A stretch of 64,000 nucleotides of DNA. Origin: Ulvibacter litoralis (lineage in GTDB: Bacteria; Bacteroidota; Bacteroidia; Flavobacteriales; Flavobacteriaceae). Shown here one piece after another: positions 28,822 to 54,771 of the stretch; positions within the stretch are counted from its first letter, which is position 1; every line of letters begins with the position of its first letter. Position numbers and translations under genes: made by a program. The notes below the pieces were generated by a model. It searched no databases. It was not told where the DNA came from and saw nothing but the letters and a program-made list of their open reading frames with translations. The stretch spans positions 186,001 to 250,000 of the forward strand of contig NZ_FNBA01000001.1 of assembly GCF_900102055.1 (NCBI RefSeq). The letters are read 5' to 3'.

Positions 28822-28827
28822 TTTTTC

Positions 28828-28941
28828 GTTATCTATCTATAAACTGCACGAAACAGTAATAAGTAGAATTTAGCACCTTCTTTACGAGTAAAGGGTTGCT
28901 AAGGTTTCATAGGGTCTAATCCCTCCGCCTTTCTTGATAAC
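28828..28941 (-). ncRNA. SAM-I (S-box) riboswitch
   Basis: Read leftward, the sequence contains the S-box blocks in order: GTTATCAAGAAAGGCGGAGG, ACCCTATGAAACCTTAGCAA and AGGTGCTAAATTC. It is closed by GATAAC (28828-28833) pairing with GTTATC (28936-28941) as helix P1. This is the SAM-I aptamer (Rfam RF00162 family). It precedes the whole methionine operon and is followed by an intrinsic terminator, so control is transcriptional. Confidence 0.95.
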
Positions 28942-28972
28942 AGATTCAATAAGAGTTTGAACTTTGTGAGCA

Positions 28973-30586: not shown

Positions 30587-30735
30587 AATGCATTTATTTC
30601 ATTTAAACGTCTGATAAACAGATTTTTATGTGTTATTTTTATTAGTTAAACATCGTAAAACTAAATCTTTAGAGACCTTCTTAGCATACTCCAAAGTATA
30701 TATTCGTAATACAATAAGAAAATATATTTTTATTA

Positions 30736-31911
30736 ATGTTAGATACAAATGTCCAAATTTTTGACACAACGCTCCGAGATGGAGAGCAGGTCCCCGGTTG
30801 TAAACTAAACACTGAACAGAAAATAATTATTGCTCAGCAGTTAGACGAGTTAGGTGTTGACATAATTGAAGCGGGTTTCCCTGTATCAAGTCCGGGAGAC
30901 TTCAATTCGGTATATGAAATCTCTAAAATCGTAAAAAACGCAACAGTTTGTGGCCTTACGAGAGCCGTACAAAATGATATCAAAGTTGCTGCGGAAGCAT
31001 TAGTAAAAGCGAAAAAGCCTAGAATACACACAGGCATTGGCACTTCGGAAAGTCATATCAAGTACAAGTTTAAGACGACTCCTGAAGAAGTTATCGTTCG
31101 AGCACAAGAAGCCGTTCGCTACGCAAAATCGTTTGTTGAAGATGTAGAGTTTTATGCTGAAGATGCAGGAAGAACCGAAAATGAATATTTAGCACGTGTT
31201 TGTGAAGCTGCCATTAAAGCGGGTGCTACCGTTTTAAATATTCCAGATACTACGGGGTATTGTTTGCCTAGTGAATACGGAGCGAAAATTAAATACCTAA
31301 GAGAAAATGTTACCGGAATTCACAATGTGATTTTATCCTGTCATTGTCATAACGATTTAGGATTGGCAACCGCAAATTCGATTGAAGGCGTTATCAACGG
31401 AGCTCGACAAATAGAATGTACTATTAACGGAATTGGCGAACGTGCTGGAAACACTGCCTTAGAAGAAGTCGTCATGGTGTTAAAACAACATCCGTACTTG
31501 AACTTCACCACCAATATCAAAAACAAATTATTATACCAAACAAGTCAGTTGGTATCCTCTCAAATGGGCATGTACCCACAACCAAACAAAGCGATTGTTG
31601 GCGCCAATGCCTTCGCTCATAGTTCTGGAATTCATCAAGATGGGGTAATTAAAAACAGAGAAACCTACGAAATCATGGACCCAAAAGATGTGGGTGTTAC
31701 AGAATCTGCTATTGTGCTTACCGCTAGAAGTGGCCGTGCTGCCTTAGCATATAAAGCTAAAAAAGTAGGGTACGAACTTACCAAACTACAACTGGATATT
31801 GTCTATGCTAATTTCTTAAATTTTGCCGACAGGCATAAAGACATTAAAGACAACGATATTCATCAAATCATTGAATCCTCCGGGCTTTACAAAGAAATAT
31901 TATCTGCTTAA
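30736..31911 (+). CDS. leuA: 2-isopropylmalate synthase, short form
   Basis: This first leucine-specific enzyme condenses acetyl-CoA with 2-oxoisovalerate. The catalytic motifs are [12 protein letters not shown] (residues 14-25), [15 protein letters not shown] and [13 protein letters not shown]. At 391 residues it ends soon after the TIM barrel and accessory helices and lacks the C-terminal regulatory LeuA dimer domain (about 120 residues) through which leucine inhibits longer homologues. Operon context with leuCDB favours LeuA over homocitrate or citramalate synthase. A 149-base spacer upstream shows no convincing attenuator. Confidence 0.88.
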
Positions 31912-35107: not shown

Positions 35108-35131
35108 ACTCTTAAACTCTTAAACTCTTAA
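35108..35131. repeat. Three direct copies of an 8-bp unit
   Basis: ACTCTTAA occurs three times head to tail. The last copy contains the ilvA stop codon (TAA on the minus strand, 35128-35130). It is probably a slippage product; no function is apparent. Confidence 0.8.
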
Positions 35132-36390
35132 ACCAAAAACTGAAAAAGTTCTGGTTTGTCATTTAAATAATCTCCATAGAAATCATACGCTTTCATTCGA
35201 ACCACTAAAGGCTTCAAATCTTCAGGCGTTTTTAATTCCAACCCCACAACAGCAGCTCCATTTTCACGATTTGTTTTCTTGGTGTATTCAAAATGTGTAA
35301 TGTCGTCGTTTGGTCCTAAAACTTCAGCAACAAATTGACGTAACGCTCCAGCCCGCTGCGGAAACTTCACAATAAAATAATGCTTCCGTTTCGCATACAA
35401 CAGCGCGCGTTCTTTTATCTCGGCAGTACGCGTAATGTCGTTATTGCTTCCACTTACCACGCACACTACATTTTTCCCTTTTATTTCTTCGGAAAATAGA
35501 TCTAAAGCAGCAATGCTCAAGGCTCCGGCAGGTTCTACAATAATTGCATCCTTGTTATACAAATCCAACATGGTTTGACATACTTTTCCTTCTGAAACAG
35601 AAATCACTGCATCGAGTGTTTCCCTACAAATTGAAAAATTTAAATCACCAACCCGTTGCACTGCGGCGCCATCTACAAACTTTTCGATAGATGTCAAAGT
35701 CGTATTTTCACCACGCTCGATAGAAATTCGCATGGAAGGTGCTCCCTCAGGTTCTACCCCAATAATTTTGGTAGAAGGAGACAATTGTTTAAATACACTA
35801 CTTACACCAGCCGATAATCCGCCACCGCCCACGGGAAGAAAAATATAATCTAACGGTTCTAGGGCTTGTGCTAGTAACTCCAAACCAATGGTTGCTTGCC
35901 CTTCAATCACTTTTTCGTCATCAAAAGGATGAATAAACACTTTACTGTCTTCCTTACAAGAAGCCATTGCTAGTGTATTTGAATCGTCAAACGTATCGCC
36001 TTCCAATATCACTTCTACAAAGTGTTCGCCGAACATGTGTACCTGTTCAATTTTTTGCTGCGGAGTGGTTGCTGGCATATAAATAGTTCCGTTTATTTTC
36101 AGCAATTTACACGACAATGCAACACCTTGCGCATGATTTCCAGCACTTGCACAAACAATACCTTGCGCTCTTTCCGAAGCACTTAGAGAAACCATTTTAT
36201 GATATGCACCTCTAATTTTATACGACCGAACGGGTTGTAAGTCTTCCCTTTTAAAATAAACGTTACTAGAAAACAACTTAGAATACCGTTCATTTTTAGA
36301 CAAGGGCGTTTTGGTTATAACTCCCGCTAACAATGAGGCAGCTTTCTCTACGTCTTGCAATCTTGGAACATATGTGATCGTAGCCTCCAT
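35128..36390 (-). CDS. ilvA: Biosynthetic threonine dehydratase
   Basis: IlvA deaminates threonine to 2-oxobutyrate for isoleucine synthesis. The PLP Lys lies in RSYKIRGAYHKM, and CASAGNHAQGVALS and GGGGLSAG are the phosphate and substrate loops. A C-terminal ACT-like regulatory segment (VKFPQRAGALRQFVAEVLG) gives 420 residues, the single-ACT form. It is the last gene of the ilv operon, 4 bases after ilvC. Confidence 0.93.
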   Translation of the reverse strand: MEATITYVPRLQDVEKAASLLAGVITKTPLSKNERYSKLFSSNVYFKREDLQPVRSYKIRGAYHKMVSLSASERAQGIVCASAGNHAQGVALSCKLLKINGTIYMPATTPQQKIEQVHMFGEHFVEVILEGDTFDDSNTLAMASCKEDSKVFIHPFDDEKVIEGQATIGLELLAQALEPLDYIFLPVGGGGLSAGVSSVFKQLSPSTKIIGVEPEGAPSMRISIERGENTTLTSIEKFVDGAAVQRVGDLNFSICRETLDAVISVSEGKVCQTMLDLYNKDAIIVEPAGALSIAALDLFSEEIKGKNVVCVVSGSNNDITRTAEIKERALLYAKRKHYFIVKFPQRAGALRQFVAEVLGPNDDITHFEYTKKTNRENGAAVVGLELKTPEDLKPLVVRMKAYDFYGDYLNDKPELFQFLV

Positions 36391-36394
36391 AGAT

Positions 36395-37882
36395 TTATGC
36401 TAATACAGGTTCGGACTGTGTGATCACTTTCATTGCCTTCATTGCTGAACGTAATGTTTTCCCTGTCGCTTCAATTTCGTGTGCTTGAATGGCTTCATTT
36501 ACTTGTATTAATTGAACATTATCAATTGGTTCGGTAGGATATGTACGTCCAATATCTGTTGGTTGTATTGTTTTCATAAAATCGACAAGCAATGGTTTCG
36601 CTGCATGATCGAACAAATAGCAACCATATTCCGCAGTATCAGAAATAATACGATTCATTTCAAACAATTTCTTTCTCGCAATGGTATTCGCAATTAACGG
36701 CAATTCGTGCAACGACTCATAGTAAGCCGACTCTTTTATAATCCCTGAAGCCACCATCGTATCGTACGCCAATTCTACACCCGATTTCACAAAAGCGACA
36801 AGTAACGTACCGTGATCAAAATAAGTTTGTTCACTAATATGATCGGACGTTGCTGTCGATTTCTCAAAAGCTGTTTTACCCGTTTCGGCACGCCATTGCA
36901 ACAAATCGGAATCATTATTTGCCCAATCTTGCATCATTCCTTCAGAAAAGCGTCCGCTCATAATATCGTCCATATGCTTTTCGAATAAAGGTTTTAAAAT
37001 TTCTTTTAATTCTTCGGAAAGTTCATAGGCGCGAAGCTTGGCCGAATTAGACAAACGATTCATCATATTGGTGATTCCTCCGTGTTTTAAAGCTTCCGTA
37101 ATGGTTTCCCATCCATTCTGAATTAATTTTGAAGCATATTCTGGTGCAATTCCTTGCTCCACCATCTTATCAAAGCTCAAAATAGATCCTGTTTGCAACA
37201 CTCCACAAAGAATGGTTTGCTCGCCCATTAAATCACTTTTTACCTCCGCTACAAAAGACGAAGCCAATACTCCAGCACGATGTCCGCCCGTTGCATACGC
37301 ATACGCTTTTGCCTGCGCCCAACCTTTATTTTCAGGATCGTTATTTGGATGCACTGCAATTAAAGTGGGTACTCCAAAACCACGTTTGTATTCTTCTCTT
37401 ACTTCCGTCCCAGGACATTTGGGCGCTACCATGATGACCGTAATATCGTCTCGCACTTGCATGCCTTCTTCCACTATATTAAATCCGTGCGAATACGATA
37501 AGGTCGCACCTTTCTTCATTAACGGAACAATACTTTTAACCACAGCGGTGTGTTGTTTGTCTGGCGTTAAATTGCACACCAAATCTGCTGAAGGCAACAA
37601 CTCATCATAAGTTCCTACCGTAAATCCATTTTCTACGGCATTTTTATAAGAGGCACGTTTTTCTGAAATCGCTGCCTCTCGAAGTGCATACGACACATCC
37701 AAACCACTATCGCGCATATTCATTCCTTGGTTTAATCCTTGTGCGCCACAACCAATAATAACTACTTTTTCCCCTTCTAAAGCCGCGATGCCCTCTTCAA
37801 ATTCTGAAGCATCCATAAAACGGCAGGTTCCTAATTGTTCTAATTTTTCTCTAAGTGATAATGTGTTGAAATAATTTTTCAT
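36395..37882 (-). CDS. ilvC: Ketol-acid reductoisomerase, class II
   Basis: IlvC isomerises and reduces acetolactate and acetohydroxybutyrate with NADPH. The nucleotide-binding motif is [19 protein letters not shown]. The 495-residue length, with a duplicated C-terminal helical domain, matches the class II (E. coli-like) enzyme rather than the 330-residue class I. It lies 12 bases after ilvN. Confidence 0.95.
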
Positions 37883-37894
37883 TTTATTGTTTTT

Positions 37895-38425
37895 TTAAGC
37901 GCTAAAAGCTTGTAATAATGTTGATATTTTTAATTCTTCTTTGGTGACTGCAATACGTCCAGAACGTACAAATTGCATAATCCCGAAGGGTTTTAATTCG
38001 CGATACATGACTTCTATTTCATTTTTATTACCAGACACCTCCAGAACAAAAAAATCGCGTTCTACCGTCACAATGCGTGCGTGATTCGCACTAATAATGT
38101 TTTTAATTTGATCGTCTTCAAAAAGCAAATCACTCTTTATTTTAAAGAGACACGACTCCTGATAAATAATCTGATCGTCGGTGTGGTAATAAGCTTTAAT
38201 CACTTCCACTTGTTTTTCTATCTGACCAATAATTTTCCGAATGCCTTCATCAGAAATTACGACCACGATAGCCCATCGCGTTACTCCTTCAATTTCAGAA
38301 ATAGACGAGTTAATACTTTCGATGTTTATTTTTCTACGCTGAAAAATTGCAGAAATCCTATTGAGAAGTCCAACGTTGTTTTCCGTATAAATTGAAACTG
38401 TATATGTGTTTATTTGTTCGCTCAT
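37895..38425 (-). CDS. ilvN: Acetolactate synthase small (regulatory) subunit
   Basis: The 176-residue protein starts with an ACT domain (YTVSIYTENNVGLLNRISAIFQRRKINIESINSS split over about residues 8-42). The second half is the typical IlvN C-terminal domain. It binds valine and stimulates IlvB. It is 31 bases downstream of ilvB. Confidence 0.95.
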   Translation of the reverse strand: MSEQINTYTVSIYTENNVGLLNRISAIFQRRKINIESINSSISEIEGVTRWAIVVVISDEGIRKIIGQIEKQVEVIKAYYHTDDQIIYQESCLFKIKSDLLFEDDQIKNIISANHARIVTVERDFFVLEVSGNKNEIEVMYRELKPFGIMQFVRSGRIAVTKEELKISTLLQAFSA

Positions 38426-38456
38426 AGTTTTTTATTTTTTCTGAAAAGTTTCAGCC

Positions 38457-40193
38457 TTAACACAATCGTATGTCAGAGACAGAAGCTCCGGTTGGAATCA
38501 TAGGAAAAACATTGTCTTCTTTTTCTACACAAACCTCTAAGAAATACGCCTCTTTACTTGCCATCATTTCTGAAACTGCTTCTTTTAATTCGTCGCGCTT
38601 TGTTACTTTTTTAGCCTCGATGGAATAACCTTTGGCAATGGCTACAAAATCCGGGTTTACCATTTCGGTGGAAGCGTAGCGTTTGTCGAAAAATAGTTGT
38701 TGCCACTGACGTACCATTCCGAGAAATTCATTGTTCAACACCACGATTTTCACAGGTATTTTTTGCTGAAAAATGGTTCCTAATTCCTGAATTGTCATTT
38801 GGTAGCCACCATCGCCTGCAATCATCACAACCTCTCTATCGGGTGCTGCCATTTTAGCACCAATAGCAGCCGGAAGTGCAAATCCCATTGTTCCTAATCC
38901 GCCCGAAGTAATATTACTTCTCGTCGTCGTAAAATTTGCATAGCGACAGGCAATCATTTGATGTTGTCCCACATCCGAAATAATAGCAGCATCTCCTTTA
39001 CTCTGAATATTAATCTCATTAAGAACTTCTCCCATAGTTAACCCTTCTTTGGTAGGATGAATGTCGTTTTTAATGACTTTTTCAAACTCAACAGCATAGA
39101 GATCTTTAAATTGTTGGTGCCATTCAGGGTATTTTTTTTCTTGAAGTAGCGGTAATAATTGTTGCAAACTCTCTTTCGCATTTCCAAGAACCGCCACATC
39201 TGTTTTTACGTTTTTATCAACTTCAGAAGGGTCTATTTCAAAGTGAATGATTTTGGCTTGTTTCGCGTATGTTTTTAAATTCCCAGTAACACGGTCGTCA
39301 AAACGCATTCCGATAGCGATTAACACATCACATTCATTGGTTAACTTATTGGGCGCGTAATTACCATGCATTCCCACCATTCCAATGTTTAAAGGGTGTG
39401 CTGTCGGAATTGCAGAAGCTCCCAATATGGTCCATGCTGAAGGAATTCCAGCTTTCTCTATCACTGCTTTTAACTCCGCTTCGGCAGTTCCTAAAATAAC
39501 GCCTTGTCCCCACACAATCATCGGTTTTTTAGCCGTATTGATTAAATCGGCTGCTTTTTGCAGGGCTGTAACATTTACGTCTGGAACGGGGTTATAACTT
39601 CTGATTGCCGTACATTTTTTGTATTCAAAATCGAATTCTTCAAACTGAGCATCTTTGGTAATATCAATTAAAACAGGCCCTGGACGACCACTCTTAGCGA
39701 TGTAAAAAGCCTTTGCAATTACTTCAGGTATTTCTGAAGCTTTCGTTACTTGATGGTTCCATTTCGTAACTGGCGTTGAAATCCCAACAATATCAGTTTC
39801 CTGAAAAGCATCACTTCCCAATAAATGTGAAGACACCTGGCCTGTAATACATACCATCGGGGTAGAATCTATTTGTGCATCTGCAATACCTGTGATGAGA
39901 TTTGTAGCTCCTGGTCCAGAAGTCGCCATGGCAACGCCTACTTTTCCTGAAATACGTGCATAGCCTTGTGCCGCATGAGTGGCACCTTGTTCGTGTCGCG
40001 TAAGCACGTGATGAATCTTATCTTGATACTTATACAATTCGTCATACACAGGCATAATGGCGCCTCCAGGATATCCGTACAAGACATCTACCCCTTCAGC
40101 CAACAAGCATCTTACAATTGCCTCACTTCCCGAAATACGTTCGGTGGTTTTTGGAGCGTTCTCTTTTTTACTTACTGTTGTTACTATTTCCAT
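38457..40193 (-). CDS. ilvB: Acetolactate synthase large (catalytic) subunit
   Basis: This 578-residue ThDP enzyme makes acetolactate or acetohydroxybutyrate from pyruvate. It has the N-terminal YGYPGGAIMPVYD and the catalytic Glu in RHEQGATHAAQGYAR, while GDGGYQMTIQELGTIF with LNNEFLGMVRQWQ forms the ThDP/Mg site. Nine bases separate it from ilvD. Confidence 0.96.
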   Translation of the reverse strand: MEIVTTVSKKENAPKTTERISGSEAIVRCLLAEGVDVLYGYPGGAIMPVYDELYKYQDKIHHVLTRHEQGATHAAQGYARISGKVGVAMATSGPGATNLITGIADAQIDSTPMVCITGQVSSHLLGSDAFQETDIVGISTPVTKWNHQVTKASEIPEVIAKAFYIAKSGRPGPVLIDITKDAQFEEFDFEYKKCTAIRSYNPVPDVNVTALQKAADLINTAKKPMIVWGQGVILGTAEAELKAVIEKAGIPSAWTILGASAIPTAHPLNIGMVGMHGNYAPNKLTNECDVLIAIGMRFDDRVTGNLKTYAKQAKIIHFEIDPSEVDKNVKTDVAVLGNAKESLQQLLPLLQEKKYPEWHQQFKDLYAVEFEKVIKNDIHPTKEGLTMGEVLNEINIQSKGDAAIISDVGQHQMIACRYANFTTTRSNITSGGLGTMGFALPAAIGAKMAAPDREVVMIAGDGGYQMTIQELGTIFQQKIPVKIVVLNNEFLGMVRQWQQLFFDKRYASTEMVNPDFVAIAKGYSIEAKKVTKRDELKEAVSEMMASKEAYFLEVCVEKEDNVFPMIPTGASVSDIRLC

Positions 40194-40202
40194 ACGATAC
40201 GT

Positions 40203-41879
40203 TTAAAATTCGTCTGTTACACATCCTTTTGATGCAGATGAAACCGTTTTTGCATATTTATAAAGAACACCGCGTTCAAATTTGAGGTTTGGCGCGGCCC
40301 ATTCTTCTTTTCGTTTTTGTAATTCTTCTTCGGAAACTTCCAATTCAATGGAGTTTGTTTCCGCATTAATTGTAATAATATCACCATCATTCACCAATGC
40401 GATGACGCCTCCTTCTTGAGCTTCGGGAGTGATATGTCCAACAACAAAACCGTGTGTTCCTCCTGAAAAACGTCCGTCAGTTATTAAAGCCACATCTTTT
40501 CCTAAGCCTGCACCAATAATAGCAGCGGTTGGCTTTAGCATTTCTGGCATTCCAGGACCTCCTTTCGGACCTTCATAGCGAATCACCACCACGTCTCCTT
40601 TTACGACTTTCCCATCTCGAATCCCGTCATTAGCTTCATATTCACCGTTAAACACTTTTGCTTTTCCTCGAAATAGAAGTCCTTCTTTCCCTGTGATTTT
40701 TGCTACGCTTCCTTCTTTTGCTAAGTTTCCGTAGAGCATGCGTAAATGCCCTGTGACTTTAATTGGATTCTCTATCGGTTTTATCACATCTTGCCCTTCA
40801 GAAAGATCTGGAACATCTAAGAGGTTTTCAGCAATTGTTTTTCCTGTTACCGTTAAACAGTCACCGTGTAACAATCCTTTCCGAAGTAAATATTTTAATA
40901 CAGCTGGAATTCCACCTACGGCATGAACGTCTTCCATGAGGTATTTTCCGCTAGGTTTTAAATCGGCTAAAAAAGGAGTGGTATCGCTTATCTTCTGAAA
41001 ATCTTGCAACGTAAAATCGATGTTTGCGGCTCTGGCGATTGCCAAAAAGTGCAGCACAGCATTGGTAGAGCCTCCTAAAATAGTGACCAATCGGATGGCA
41101 TTTTCTAACGATTTGCGGGTAATAATATCGGAAGGTTTTATGTCTTTCTCCAGCAAATTTCGGATGGCAGCTCCTGCTCGTACCGACTCTTCTTGTTTGG
41201 CATCGCTTAACGCAGGATTTGAGGCATTAAAAGGTAATGCCATTCCTAATCCTTCTATGGCAGAAGCCATGGTATTCGCGGTGTACATTCCGCCACAAGC
41301 ACCTGCTCCTGGACATGCTTTTTCTACAATACTTTCATAATCGGTTTGCGTCATGGTGCCCGCTACTTTACTTCCCCACGCTTCAAATGCCGACACTACA
41401 TCCAACTTCTGACCTTTATGACAGCCAGAATCGATGGTTCCGCCATACACTAAAATGGACGGACGATCCAAACGAATCATTGCCATTAAAGCGCCAGGCA
41501 TGTTTTTGTCGCAACCTACCACAGTGATTAACCCATCGTAGCTCATGGCTTGCACAACCGTTTCCATAGAATCGGCAATTAGATCGCGCGAAGGCAACGA
41601 ATAGCGCATTCCTGGGGTTCCCATAGAAATTCCATCACTCACACCAATGGTGTTAAAAATAAGTCCGACCACGTCTTCTTGTTTTGTTCCTTGCTTTACT
41701 AATTTTGCTAAATCGTTAAGGTGCATATTGCAAGGATTTCCTTCGTAGCCCGTACTCGCAATACCGATAATAGGCTTAAAAAAATCTTCTTTTGTGAGTC
41801 CGATAGCGTGCAACATGGCTTGTGCGGCGGGTTGCGTATCGTCTTGTGTTACTGTTTTACTGTATTTATTAAGTTTCAT
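40203..41879 (-). CDS. ilvD: Dihydroxy-acid dehydratase
   Basis: IlvD dehydrates dihydroxy-isovalerate and -methylvalerate with an Fe-S cluster. Cluster cysteines lie in [20 protein letters not shown] and [29 protein letters not shown] is near the C-terminus. The length of 558 is normal. It is the first gene of the ilvDBNCA operon. Its ATG overlaps the stop of a 48-codon ORF (ATGA, 41876-41879) and it lies downstream of two tandem attenuators. Confidence 0.96.
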
Positions 41880-42091: not shown

Positions 42092-42183
42092 AAACCCATT
42101 GGTATTACATTTCTTTTTATTTACTGACAATCAGATAGTTAGCTAATGTTGTTTATGATGTTCACTACTCAATATTTATGCAT

Positions 42184-42222
42184 AAAAAAAGCCTGTATCG
42201 CGATTGATACAGGCTTTTTTTT
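42184..42222 (-). terminator. Second (proximal) attenuator terminator of the ilv leader
   Basis: GCCTGTATC pairs with GATACAGGC, extended by flanking A/T runs to about 16 bp, loop AATCGC in the leftward reading, followed by seven T. It lies 19 bases after the stop of the second leader peptide. The arm segment CTGTATC (42206-42212) can also pair with GATGCAG (42236-42242), which overlaps the leader stop codon. Confidence 0.88.
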
Positions 42223-42240
42223 AGAATATAGCAAGCTGCA

Positions 42241-42294
42241 TCAACACCAAGGTATAATGATAATAATGACAAGTATGCTACTAATTAATTTCAT
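42241..42294 (-). CDS. Second Ile-rich leader peptide of the ilv operon (proposed)
   Basis: A 17-codon ORF encodes MKLISSILVIIIIIPWC: seven Ile, two Leu and one Val. It is flanked upstream by one terminator and downstream by another. Five consecutive Ile codons (ATT ATT ATC ATT ATA) are a strong stalling signal when charged tRNA-Ile is low. A stalled ribosome would leave GATGCAG, at and just after the stop codon, free to sequester the terminator arm. The sequence is seen directly; the mechanism follows the E. coli ilv and leu attenuation model. Confidence 0.85.
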   Translation of the reverse strand: MKLISSILVIIIIIPWC

Positions 42295-42303
42295 AAAACT
42301 ATT

Positions 42304-42341
42304 GTATAAAAAAAGCCTTCCGTTTTAAAGGAAGGCTTTTA
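42304..42341 (-). terminator. First (distal) attenuator terminator of the ilv leader
   Basis: AAAAGCCTTCC pairs with GGAAGGCTTTT (42311-42321 with 42330-42340), followed leftward by seven T. It lies 25 bases after the stop of the first leader peptide and ends 10 bases before the second leader ATG. The arm AGCCTT (42332-42337) can pair with AAGGCT (42368-42373) across the last leader codons and stop. It could also end the upstream glt operon. Confidence 0.85.
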
Positions 42342-42365
42342 CATATGTTACGTAAATACCATTCC

Positions 42366-42425
42366 TCAGCCTTGCAAAATAATTGCAGGGATGCTACTAA
42401 TGATATTTATAATTTGTGTATTCAT
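42366..42425 (-). CDS. First Ile-rich leader peptide of the ilv operon (proposed)
   Basis: A 19-codon ORF encodes MNTQIINIISSIPAIILQG, with seven Ile and one Leu. It shares the 11-base string ATTAGTAGCAT and the I-S-S-I core with the second leader peptide, which suggests that the leader-terminator unit was duplicated. A terminator with a possible competing pairing follows. A promoter-like TTTG-N20-AATATTTG ends about 8 bases before the ATG. Confidence 0.78.
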   Translation of the reverse strand: MNTQIINIISSIPAIILQG

Positions 42426-42432
42426 TGTTCTT

Positions 42433-42464
42433 CAAATATTAGAAACTATTACGAGCTATCCAAA
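42433..42464 (-). promoter_or_regulatory. Candidate promoter of the ilv operon
   Basis: Read leftward, TTTG (42461-42464) and AATATTTG (42433-42440) are separated by 20 bases; the second box differs from TAnnTTTG at one position. It lies immediately downstream of the aminotransferase stop and just before the first leader peptide, which would make the 5' end very short. Confidence 0.45.
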
Positions 42465-42468
42465 TTTT

Positions 42469-43632
42469 TTACTGAAGTTTTTGTTGAAATGTTTTTAAGG
42501 TCGTTCCAATTTCGAACGCATAACCTGTTTGCGATAAAGCATATTCTATAGCACTAAGCGTTGCTACGAGGTCTTTTTCTGAAACCGATCCCATGTGTCC
42601 CACTCTAAAGTAAGTGGTTTTAATTTCTGGCAATAATCCTCCAGCAACAATGATGTCTCTATCCGACATCGCTTTTCTAAATTCAGCATCTTGAACACCT
42701 ATAGGATAGTACACAGCTGTTAAGGTATTCGCAGCGTAGTCTTCGTTCTTCGGAAGAATTTTTAGTCCGATAGAAGCCACCGCCAAACGAAACGCAGTTG
42801 CCAATCGCATATGTTTTGCAATCCGTTTCTGGATGCCTTCCGAAGTAATTATTTTTAAACTTGTTTCTAGGGCTAGAATCAAATTTACGGGTGGTGTTCC
42901 GAAATAAGAAGGTTTTCTTTCTTGATACGCCTTCATAATTGGCAACCAATTTCCCCAATCTGCATAATAATTGGGCACTAATGTTTTTCTGTTTTTCCAT
43001 GTCTGTAGTGCTCTTTCCGAAGCAACTAACAACGCCAACCCTGGTGGTACCCCCACTGCTTTTTGAGAAGCCGTAAGCACAACATCTAAACCCCAATCAT
43101 CTTGCTTAATAGCTTCACCAGCCACAGAACATACACCATCCATCACACTCAACACCTTGTATTTTTGAGCTAATAATGCGATAGGCTCTGGCGCTACTAA
43201 AACACCTGTCGAAGTATCTACATGTGTAAACGTTAGCAGTTTGTATTGTTTTTGTTTGAGTTCTTCTTCAATTTCTTCTAGAGAAATGACATCGCCAATA
43301 GCTGCAGATAAAACCGTTACCTTGGCTCCGTAACGCAATAAAATATCACGATATCTTTTTCCGAAGTAGCCTGTAGAAATGACCAACGCATGATCGCCAG
43401 CTTCAATTAAGTTTGCGGCTGCCATGTCCATGGCCAGTGTACCGCTTCCAGCCACAACAAAAGGCTGACCTGCTGGTGCTTTCCAAACATCTTTCATTAG
43501 ATCTAATGCGTTCCCGAACGATTCAATAAAATCTGGTGCTACGTGACTTGTTGTTTCAATACCCATGGCACGTGTTACTTCTGGTTCAAATTCTATGGGA
43601 CCTGGGATCATTAATAATTTTCTTCCTTTCAT
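42469..43632 (-). CDS. Class V aminotransferase (alanine/serine-glyoxylate type)
   Basis: The 387-residue PLP enzyme has MIPGPIEFEPEV at the start, GSGTLAMDMAAANL, VDTSTGVLVAP, MDGVCSVAGE and the PLP Lys in TASQKAVGVPPG. The family includes alanine-glyoxylate, serine-glyoxylate, serine-pyruvate and ureidoglycine-glyoxylate aminotransferases, and the substrate cannot be told from sequence. It follows gltD by 10 bases, which points to amino-group transfer from newly made glutamate or a related donor. Confidence 0.85.
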   Translation of the reverse strand: MKGRKLLMIPGPIEFEPEVTRAMGIETTSHVAPDFIESFGNALDLMKDVWKAPAGQPFVVAGSGTLAMDMAAANLIEAGDHALVISTGYFGKRYRDILLRYGAKVTVLSAAIGDVISLEEIEEELKQKQYKLLTFTHVDTSTGVLVAPEPIALLAQKYKVLSVMDGVCSVAGEAIKQDDWGLDVVLTASQKAVGVPPGLALLVASERALQTWKNRKTLVPNYYADWGNWLPIMKAYQERKPSYFGTPPVNLILALETSLKIITSEGIQKRIAKHMRLATAFRLAVASIGLKILPKNEDYAANTLTAVYYPIGVQDAEFRKAMSDRDIIVAGGLLPEIKTTYFRVGHMGSVSEKDLVATLSAIEYALSQTGYAFEIGTTLKTFQQKLQ

Positions 43633-54647: not shown

Positions 54648-54659
54648 TAGCCTTAAAAA

Positions 54660-54711
54660 TGAGGAAAGATTTGACTGATTGCAACCTCAAAAAAAAATGC
54701 TAAAGGCAGTG
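54660..54711 (+). ncRNA. SAM-II type riboswitch
   Basis: TGAGG (54660-54664) pairs with CCTCA (54685-54689) as helix P1. The loop contains AGATTTGACTGATTGCAA and the 3' part TGCTAAAGGCAGT, matching the conserved SAM-II core. ACTG (54674-54677) pairs with CAGT (54707-54710) to give the expected pseudoknot helix. It stands before metK, the SAM synthetase gene. It resembles Rfam SAM_alpha (RF00521); a SAM-V relative with the same core is an alternative. Confidence 0.82.
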
Positions 54712-54771
54712 TAAACTTCCTTCGACGTTTTCGTCAAATCGACCTATAATATTATAATTAAAAACCATTTT

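Follow-up and report, generated by a model that had tools for sequence, protein, structure and literature searches.

Two predicted isoleucine-rich leader-peptide attenuators in series before ilvDBNCA in Ulvibacter litoralis and its relatives

Attenuation is a textbook mechanism that is usually drawn as one switch per operon, and the trp, his, thr and ilvGMEDA operons of E. coli carry ribosome-mediated attenuators. The leader region considered here precedes ilvDBNCA on the minus strand of a 64,000-nucleotide stretch of the Ulvibacter litoralis genome (the window). It resembles the E. coli-type attenuators in its leader ORFs rich in the product amino acid, its mutually exclusive 1:2, 2:3 and 3:4 helices and its intrinsic terminators, but differs in that two complete units for a single amino acid stand in series behind a predicted Bacteroidota-type promoter, and in that the first leader ORF is predicted to begin almost at the 5' end. 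The host phylum is described as lacking Shine-Dalgarno sites (excerpts of PMC6847099).

Within the literature searched, the nearest printed cases are the Salmonella mgtCBR leader (excerpts of PMC3641672) and mefA/msrD (excerpts of PMC10314930). The former also combines two leader ORFs and two attenuators in one leader, one of them responsive to an amino acid, but it is described there as sensing ATP and proline additively through hairpins unlike intrinsic terminators, whereas both leaders in the window are Ile-rich and both are followed by intrinsic terminators, which sets the window apart from that type. In mefA/msrD, two leader-peptide attenuators for the same signal act on one operon, with msrD under both; the signal, however, is a macrolide antibiotic, and the attenuators are split by mefA, each preceding its own gene. 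The tandem riboswitches before B. clausii metE (passages of PMC3641672) likewise combine two sensors in a single leader, both with a predicted intrinsic terminator, but these respond to two ligands sensed directly by the RNA, with no leader peptide; for rimP, the portion of PMC2965389 at hand describes a tandem terminator without a leader peptide. Among systems closer to the host, the Bacteroid-trp leader (RF01692) is a leader-peptide family of Bacteroidetes to which unit A shows a sub-threshold match (28 of 49 bits, no better than several sRNA families); it concerns a different amino acid and operon, and the excerpts of PMC2864571 and PMC6414381 describe no tandem arrangement. For F. psychrophilum, a member of the same broad group, "strong clues" are given for leader-peptide attenuation upstream of amino-acid operons in excerpts of PMC9723704, which describe no tandem case and come from a main text with no occurrence of ilvD, and possible leader sORFs are mentioned for B. 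thetaiotaomicron in passages of PMC7366714. Tandem same-signal amino-acid attenuators were not found in the open-access literature searched. The parts are known; the arrangement, two complete adjacent units for one amino acid in many genera, is unusual and, within that literature, new.

A first-pass annotation had described two Ile-rich ORFs, each followed by a strong terminator within 25 bases, before ilvDBNCA. On the minus strand the order is a promoter-like TTTGG ... AATATTTG, ORF A, terminator T1, ORF B, terminator T2, 308 nt and ilvD, confirming that description. NCBIfam identifies ilvD (40203-41879), the first gene of the controlled operon, and ilvB, ilvN, ilvC and ilvA (35128-40193). 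In our custom detector, the terminator stems start 26 nt (A) and 23 nt (B) past the stop codons, and each is a perfect hairpin followed by a U tract, with arms AAAGCCTTCC...GGAAGGCTTT in T1 and AAAGCCTGTATC...GATACAGGCTTT in T2. Folding energies of the whole units are -33.1 (A) and -38.0 kcal/mol (B), with both hairpins present in the fold. A consensus terminator scan, the promoters of which are E. coli-type, listed neither hairpin, and hence our own unit detector and a Bacteroidota promoter score were used in its place. Within the 589-nt intergenic region, the detector finds two units on the coding strand and none on the opposite strand; 1500 dinucleotide-preserving shuffles of that region gave no unit in 1499 cases, one unit in a single case and two units in none.

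Unit A begins with leader ORF A, MNTQIINIISSIPAIILQG (42366-42425; 7 Ile of 19), which was called as an ORF and recovered by covariance model R1 at 96.9 bits, this unit being itself part of the R1 training set. Segment 1, UAAAUAUCAUU (42399-42409), spans Ile codons and pairs with 42353-42363, as supported by folding and family covariation; those same bases lie within segment 2, AGGAAUGGUAUUUACGUA (42349-42366), which in the fold can alternatively form the 5' side of an antiterminator. T1, comprising segments 3 and 4 (42311-42340) with a U tract reaching about 42306, is placed by folding and the family alignment. In the consensus for this type, the early Ile codon stretch (UAUCAUUUC) pairs with GGAAUGGUA just past the stop codon, enclosing an inner hairpin UUGUGA:UCACAA; the alternative partner of GGAAUGG, which directly follows the stop codon, is CCUUCC in the terminator, AGGAAUGG:CCUUCC being the conserved antiterminator. 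The complete window unit folds into 1:2 plus the terminator; when the 3' arm of the terminator is removed, it folds into a 16-bp antiterminator interrupted by a single bulge and a single 1x1 mismatch. The AAGGCT:AGCCTT pairing assigned to unit A at first pass is present as complementarity, but the conserved antiterminator is GGAAUGG:CCUUCC instead.

Unit B follows the same logic with different sequences. Leader ORF B, MKLISSILVIIIIIPWC (42241-42294; 7 Ile of 17), was called as an ORF and is scored by covariance model R2 at 90.6 bits, again as a member of the training set. Segment 1, AUCAUUAU (42254-42261), carries Ile codons and pairs with 42240-42247 in the model alignment. Segment 2, GUGUUGAUGCAGCUU (42233-42247), identified from the fold and alignment, overlaps the UGA stop and has as its partner either segment 1 or, as antiterminator, segment 3. 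T2, with segments 3 and 4 at 42188-42217 and a U tract to about 42182, is likewise drawn from folding and the family alignment. Across type B, helix 1:2 joins the last Ile codons to the region of the stop codon, and helix 2:3 joins UGAUACAG, which lies across the stop codon, to CUGUAUCA; the GATGCAG:CTGTATC complementarity noticed earlier exists and is this conserved 2:3 pairing.

To place these units in context, IlvD was searched in 199 genomes of the window's family and found in 164; the survey covers the window and 140 other ilvD-bearing genomes (n = 141, 23 of the 164 being left out), with about 3 kb upstream of ilvD for each (L111 contributes a short stretch of 1677 nt). Two attenuator subtypes emerge from these 141 loci of one family, type A with the terminator arm GCCTTCC and type B with GCCTGTATC, from which R1 (47 A units) and R2 (34 B units) were built on units picked by the detector. 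With these models, which match their training units in the same genomes by construction, 36 loci carry A only, 24 B only, 17 both and 64 neither, counts that drop opposite-strand matches and the weaker of two models per unit (L088, L119, L186 and L201, for example, being assigned to A) and that retain two weak A matches (L121, L149). The check across relatives that was proposed with the original description has thus been run, and 77 of the 141 loci have A, B or both. A comes first in all 17 two-unit loci, with an A-B gap of 2-152 nt in 16 of them and of 687 nt in L136. Leaders average 0.31 Ile and 0.12 Val in type A (n = 47) and 0.27 Ile and 0.15 Val in type B (n = 34); the window A leader has no Val codons, which are usual in its type. 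In the window's own genome, R1 at E <= 0.01 under stricter filters returns unit A and a his leader, and when restricted to the window it picks up unit B as well (48.1 bits); R2 returns unit B, T2 on the reverse strand, a weak match to unit A and another weak one at an ORF end. The genus is represented in the search by one further genome (G056), which has two ilvD copies (G056:C5:237201-238871 and G056:C8:32727-34400); its closest ilvD is among the loci without a unit, and two attenuator-like units with other terminators lie about 0.9 kb before the more distant copy.

By the detector or the models, two units also occur in named records of Tenacibaculum (L005), Gaetbulibacter (L006), Lutibacter (L031), Myroides (L039), Aquimarina (L011, both A-like) and Chryseobacterium (L038 and L043), as well as in a Cyclobacteriaceae (L033), an Ignavibacteriae (L029) and a Flavobacteriales MAG (L017); labels outside the family rest on the detector for all 80 named loci and on R1 and R2 for 60 of them (L001-L060).

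Helices 1:2 and 3:4 covary in both subtypes. For type A, in structures set by hand from the window and the consensus (1:2, inner hairpin and 3:4), 88.1% of alignment cells are paired against 42-55% in slid controls, and 61 cells carry double changes against 20.4 in shuffles, none of 500 shuffles being as high. For type B (1:2 and 3:4) the figure is 95.1% against 32-41%, a lead that is partly expected because RNAalifold had derived the 1:2 helix from that very alignment, and 40 cells are doubly changed against 13.4 in shuffles (again 0 of 500 as high). The shuffles and double changes are stronger evidence than the slid controls. On a weaker measure, pairs changed on both sides, the observed value was matched by 19 of 500 shuffles in A and in B alike, and for B further pair types were reached by 214 of 500. 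These alignments omit G079, matches lying over 2000 nt away from ilvD, and any unit with a terminator of neither type. The 2:3 helix is paired in 96.7% of cells in B (slid 24-42%) and 85.1% in A (slid 43-73%), and in neither family alignment does it covary beyond the shuffles, which may be expected where one arm serves two partners; its conservation is not independent proof. RNAalifold on MAFFT alignments recovered, for A, just 4 bp of the inner hairpin and nothing of 2:3, and for B a 6-bp 2:3. Each unit has an Ile-rich leader, an intrinsic terminator and alternative pairings, 1:2 showing covariation and 2:3 conservation only.

The placement of the control codons fits these helices. In a ribosome-position model that treats the 12 nt starting at the first base of the A-site codon as covered, any of the seven Ile codons in the A site gives an antiterminator probability of 0.86 (A) or 0.90 (B) in the window, as opposed to 0.00 (A) and 0.10 (B) for the stop codon, so that the modelled switch point would lie just past the last Ile codon of each leader, where the control codons of an attenuator should place it. 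Among relatives, moving from the last Ile or Val codon to the stop lowers the probability by at least 0.3 in 40/47 A and 24/34 B units (36 A and 23 B with a 9-nt offset, 42 A and 31 B with 15 nt), compared with 9.4% of 235 (A) and 17.1% of 170 (B) shuffled leaders at 12 nt. For a ribosome-free leader before segment 4 is made, 2:3 is also favoured (0.86 in A, 0.80 in B), and the folding model alone therefore leaves repression without translation unexplained; such repression would, in the model, have to rest on 1:2 forming first.

Upstream, a predicted promoter, P1, combines a -33-like element TTTGG (42460-42464; score 8/9, 20-nt spacer) with a -7-like element AATATTTG (42433-42440, by sequence score), and would start near 42428 with a G at -5, in the numbering used for F. 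johnsoniae (excerpts of PMC6847099), leaving a 5' UTR of about 3 nt. The score counts matches to TTG and TAnnTTTG, spaced by 17-21 nt, over the 60 nt upstream of each leader. At least 8/9 is reached before 27/47 A, 12/19 single B and 0/15 tandem B units, against rates in resampled sequence of 13%, 11% and 5%, respectively (Fisher P = 0.00014 for single versus tandem B). From the end of the -7-like element to the start codon the distance is 5-12 nt in 25 of the 27 A units and 3-5 nt in 11 of the 12 single B units, which with the F. johnsoniae numbering implies that the leader ORF begins at the 5' end or a few nucleotides past it; such short leaders are a minority in that group (passages of PMC6847099 and PMC9723704). 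Since promoter-like sequence precedes none of the 15 tandem B units, the pair probably lies in series on one transcript, and a tandem B would need passage of T1 and internal initiation.

Conservation, covariation, promoter placement and codon position all support the core of the first-pass proposal of two ribosome-mediated attenuators in series, and we consider it highly probable, on this reading of the sequence, that two complete transcription attenuators of this kind on one leader RNA gate ilvDBNCA. A ribosome running through an Ile-rich leader to its stop codon would cover segment 2, so that 3:4 would form and polymerase would stop; a ribosome stalled on an Ile codon by a shortage of charged tRNA would leave segment 2 free to form 2:3, and polymerase would pass. 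We infer from these features transcription from P1, leader translation, stalling and termination. Readthrough of the pair would then approximate the product of two probabilities, with a lower floor and a steeper response to shortage of Ile (in relatives also of Val), an AND-like or multiplicative behaviour suggested by the anatomy.

What the earlier proposal had left out of account is a promoter-like element before ilvD in relatives. Of the 141 loci, 68 have the exact motif TAnnTTTG within 110 nt before ilvD (8.9% for resampled sequence), so that some of the transcription of ilvD may escape the switches, and a box resembling TTGAAYATSATA (one mismatch) occurs within 1700 nt before ilvD in 94/141 loci as opposed to 396/2820 mononucleotide shuffles. 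On visual inspection, a CTGATnnTCAG-like palindrome and a TTGAnTTTA box often come after this box; of the three, the window retains the first two, as a candidate regulator site GTGAACATCATA ... CTGATTGTCAG between T2 and ilvD (42124-42165, minus strand), its form of the box common before ilvD in many relatives. Together, the boxes and the -7-like motif may constitute a regulator-controlled promoter that bypasses the switches, and this is the main threat to a strong role for the attenuators. That ilvD is driven mainly from such a second promoter, P2, with the attenuator pair confined to a minor transcript, nevertheless seems unlikely to us. The exact motif, frequent in B-only (22/24) and unit-less (36/64) loci, is found in only 5/17 A+B and 5/36 A-only loci, and the 110 nt before ilvD in the window contain no exact TAnnTTTG and only a weak promoter-like element; moreover, the attenuators keep covarying helices and hence matter for something, and the two layers can coexist.

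Visual comparison of the regions upstream of ilvD (42124-42165, minus strand) and leuA (30587-30740, plus strand) turns up a CTGAT(A/T)nnCAG-like palindrome and an AACATC(A/G)TA box in both, with the order reversed; a single branched-chain amino-acid regulator could possibly act at these sites.

We think it very improbable that T1 is a mere terminator of upstream genes, ORF A a chance reading frame and B the only attenuator. The upstream neighbour is an aminotransferase gene (42469-43632), adjoining gltD, which like the ilv genes is identified by NCBIfam, and a putative gltB-like ORF of 1500 codons; its end at 42469 lies 43 nt upstream of ORF A, and T1 and T2 are the sole terminators detected in the intergenic region, as such an arrangement would have it. 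Type A units, however, also stand before ilvD where the upstream gene is a different one or lies on the opposite strand (for example L003 and L006), and they possess a conserved leader, a 1:2 helix and promoter-like sequence. T1 may serve both as upstream terminator and as part of an attenuator. On the minus strand, no terminator was detected at 42426-42468, between the gltD-aminotransferase genes and leader A, so that upstream transcripts might enter both attenuators, which would couple glt to ilv when isoleucine is short.

The likeness of short Ile/Val-rich peptides to small membrane toxins could point to hydrophobic peptides acting in trans, with the hairpins as no more than transcript ends. 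We find this hardly credible, given that it was their position before ilv genes, where they recur, that led to the peptides, that their codons lie within covarying RNA helices and that hisG and gatAB follow comparable units whose leaders are His-rich and Asn-rich. Least probable of all is a riboswitch or T-box reading the amino acid in place of a translated leader, since the long structured leader before an amino-acid operon that might suggest it matches no Rfam family at the gathering threshold, and the 39 sub-threshold matches of a permissive search are of mixed kinds, include no T-box and are led by Thr_leader (RF00506) on unit B at 42.9 of 55 bits.

Six R1 matches away from ilv genes were inspected: one before a his gene, three before gatAB and two with no clear leader. 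The first lies in the window's own genome outside the window (L223:2334-2451), where a His-rich leader, MNTQLHHHHSHICSQANRK, and a strong terminator precede hisG; it is likely, judging from its sequence, to be a histidine attenuator, making it plausible that the organism uses leader-peptide attenuation elsewhere. The gatAB cases (L226:539-645, L227:510-620 and L228:579-687) have Asn-rich leader ORFs, MKNNNNNNNFNNPKF among them, with GCCTTCC-type terminators before an amidase gene and then gatB (Pfam reports Amidase in L226 and L228, and GatB in L227), and could possibly be asparagine-sensing attenuators of the tRNA amidotransferase.

As to the origin of the pair, the two leaders do share the word ATTAGTAGCAT, from which the first-pass annotation had concluded that the module looks duplicated. 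Common words of at least 11 nt are indeed more frequent within a genome (6/15 A/B pairs) than across genomes (102/1583), but A and B are distinct subtypes with different terminators that occur across many genera, so the pair is not simply a fresh copy. A recent duplication as the source of A and B is not favoured, given the differing terminators and an order common to 17 loci. Direct evidence of tandem duplication comes from G079 (L210:1673-2072; also L231), where three units stand in series before ilvD and the second and third have almost the same leader and terminator. On a tree of 81 IlvD proteins made by a quick method, in which some rows labelled as having no unit are short contigs, the two-unit state, present in 11 rows, requires 10 changes (mean of 10.6 in shuffles, 180/500 of which go as low), a scatter suggesting that units come and go.

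A second switch might buy lower basal readthrough, a larger range and a steeper response, and because loci with zero to three adjacent units for the same amino acid exist, its benefit is measurable in natural variants. For a phylum without Shine-Dalgarno sites, the survey also supplies leader-peptide attenuators of ilv operons that are backed by covariation. More tentatively, and with somewhat less than even confidence, we propose that same-signal attenuators in Bacteroidota are modular and countable, with units duplicating, diverging and getting lost and their number in series (one, two or, in one relative, three) setting the floor and steepness of the starvation response, and that the first unit would be read from a near-leaderless 5' end, whereas the second would need internal initiation and so would also test translation capacity.

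Elsewhere in the window, a leu attenuator before leuA (30736, plus strand) was considered and set aside, no terminator being found there. Two SAM riboswitch classes, SAM (RF00162) and SAM-II (RF01726), lie within 26 kb of each other at 28826-28943 (minus strand) and 54655-54713 (plus strand).
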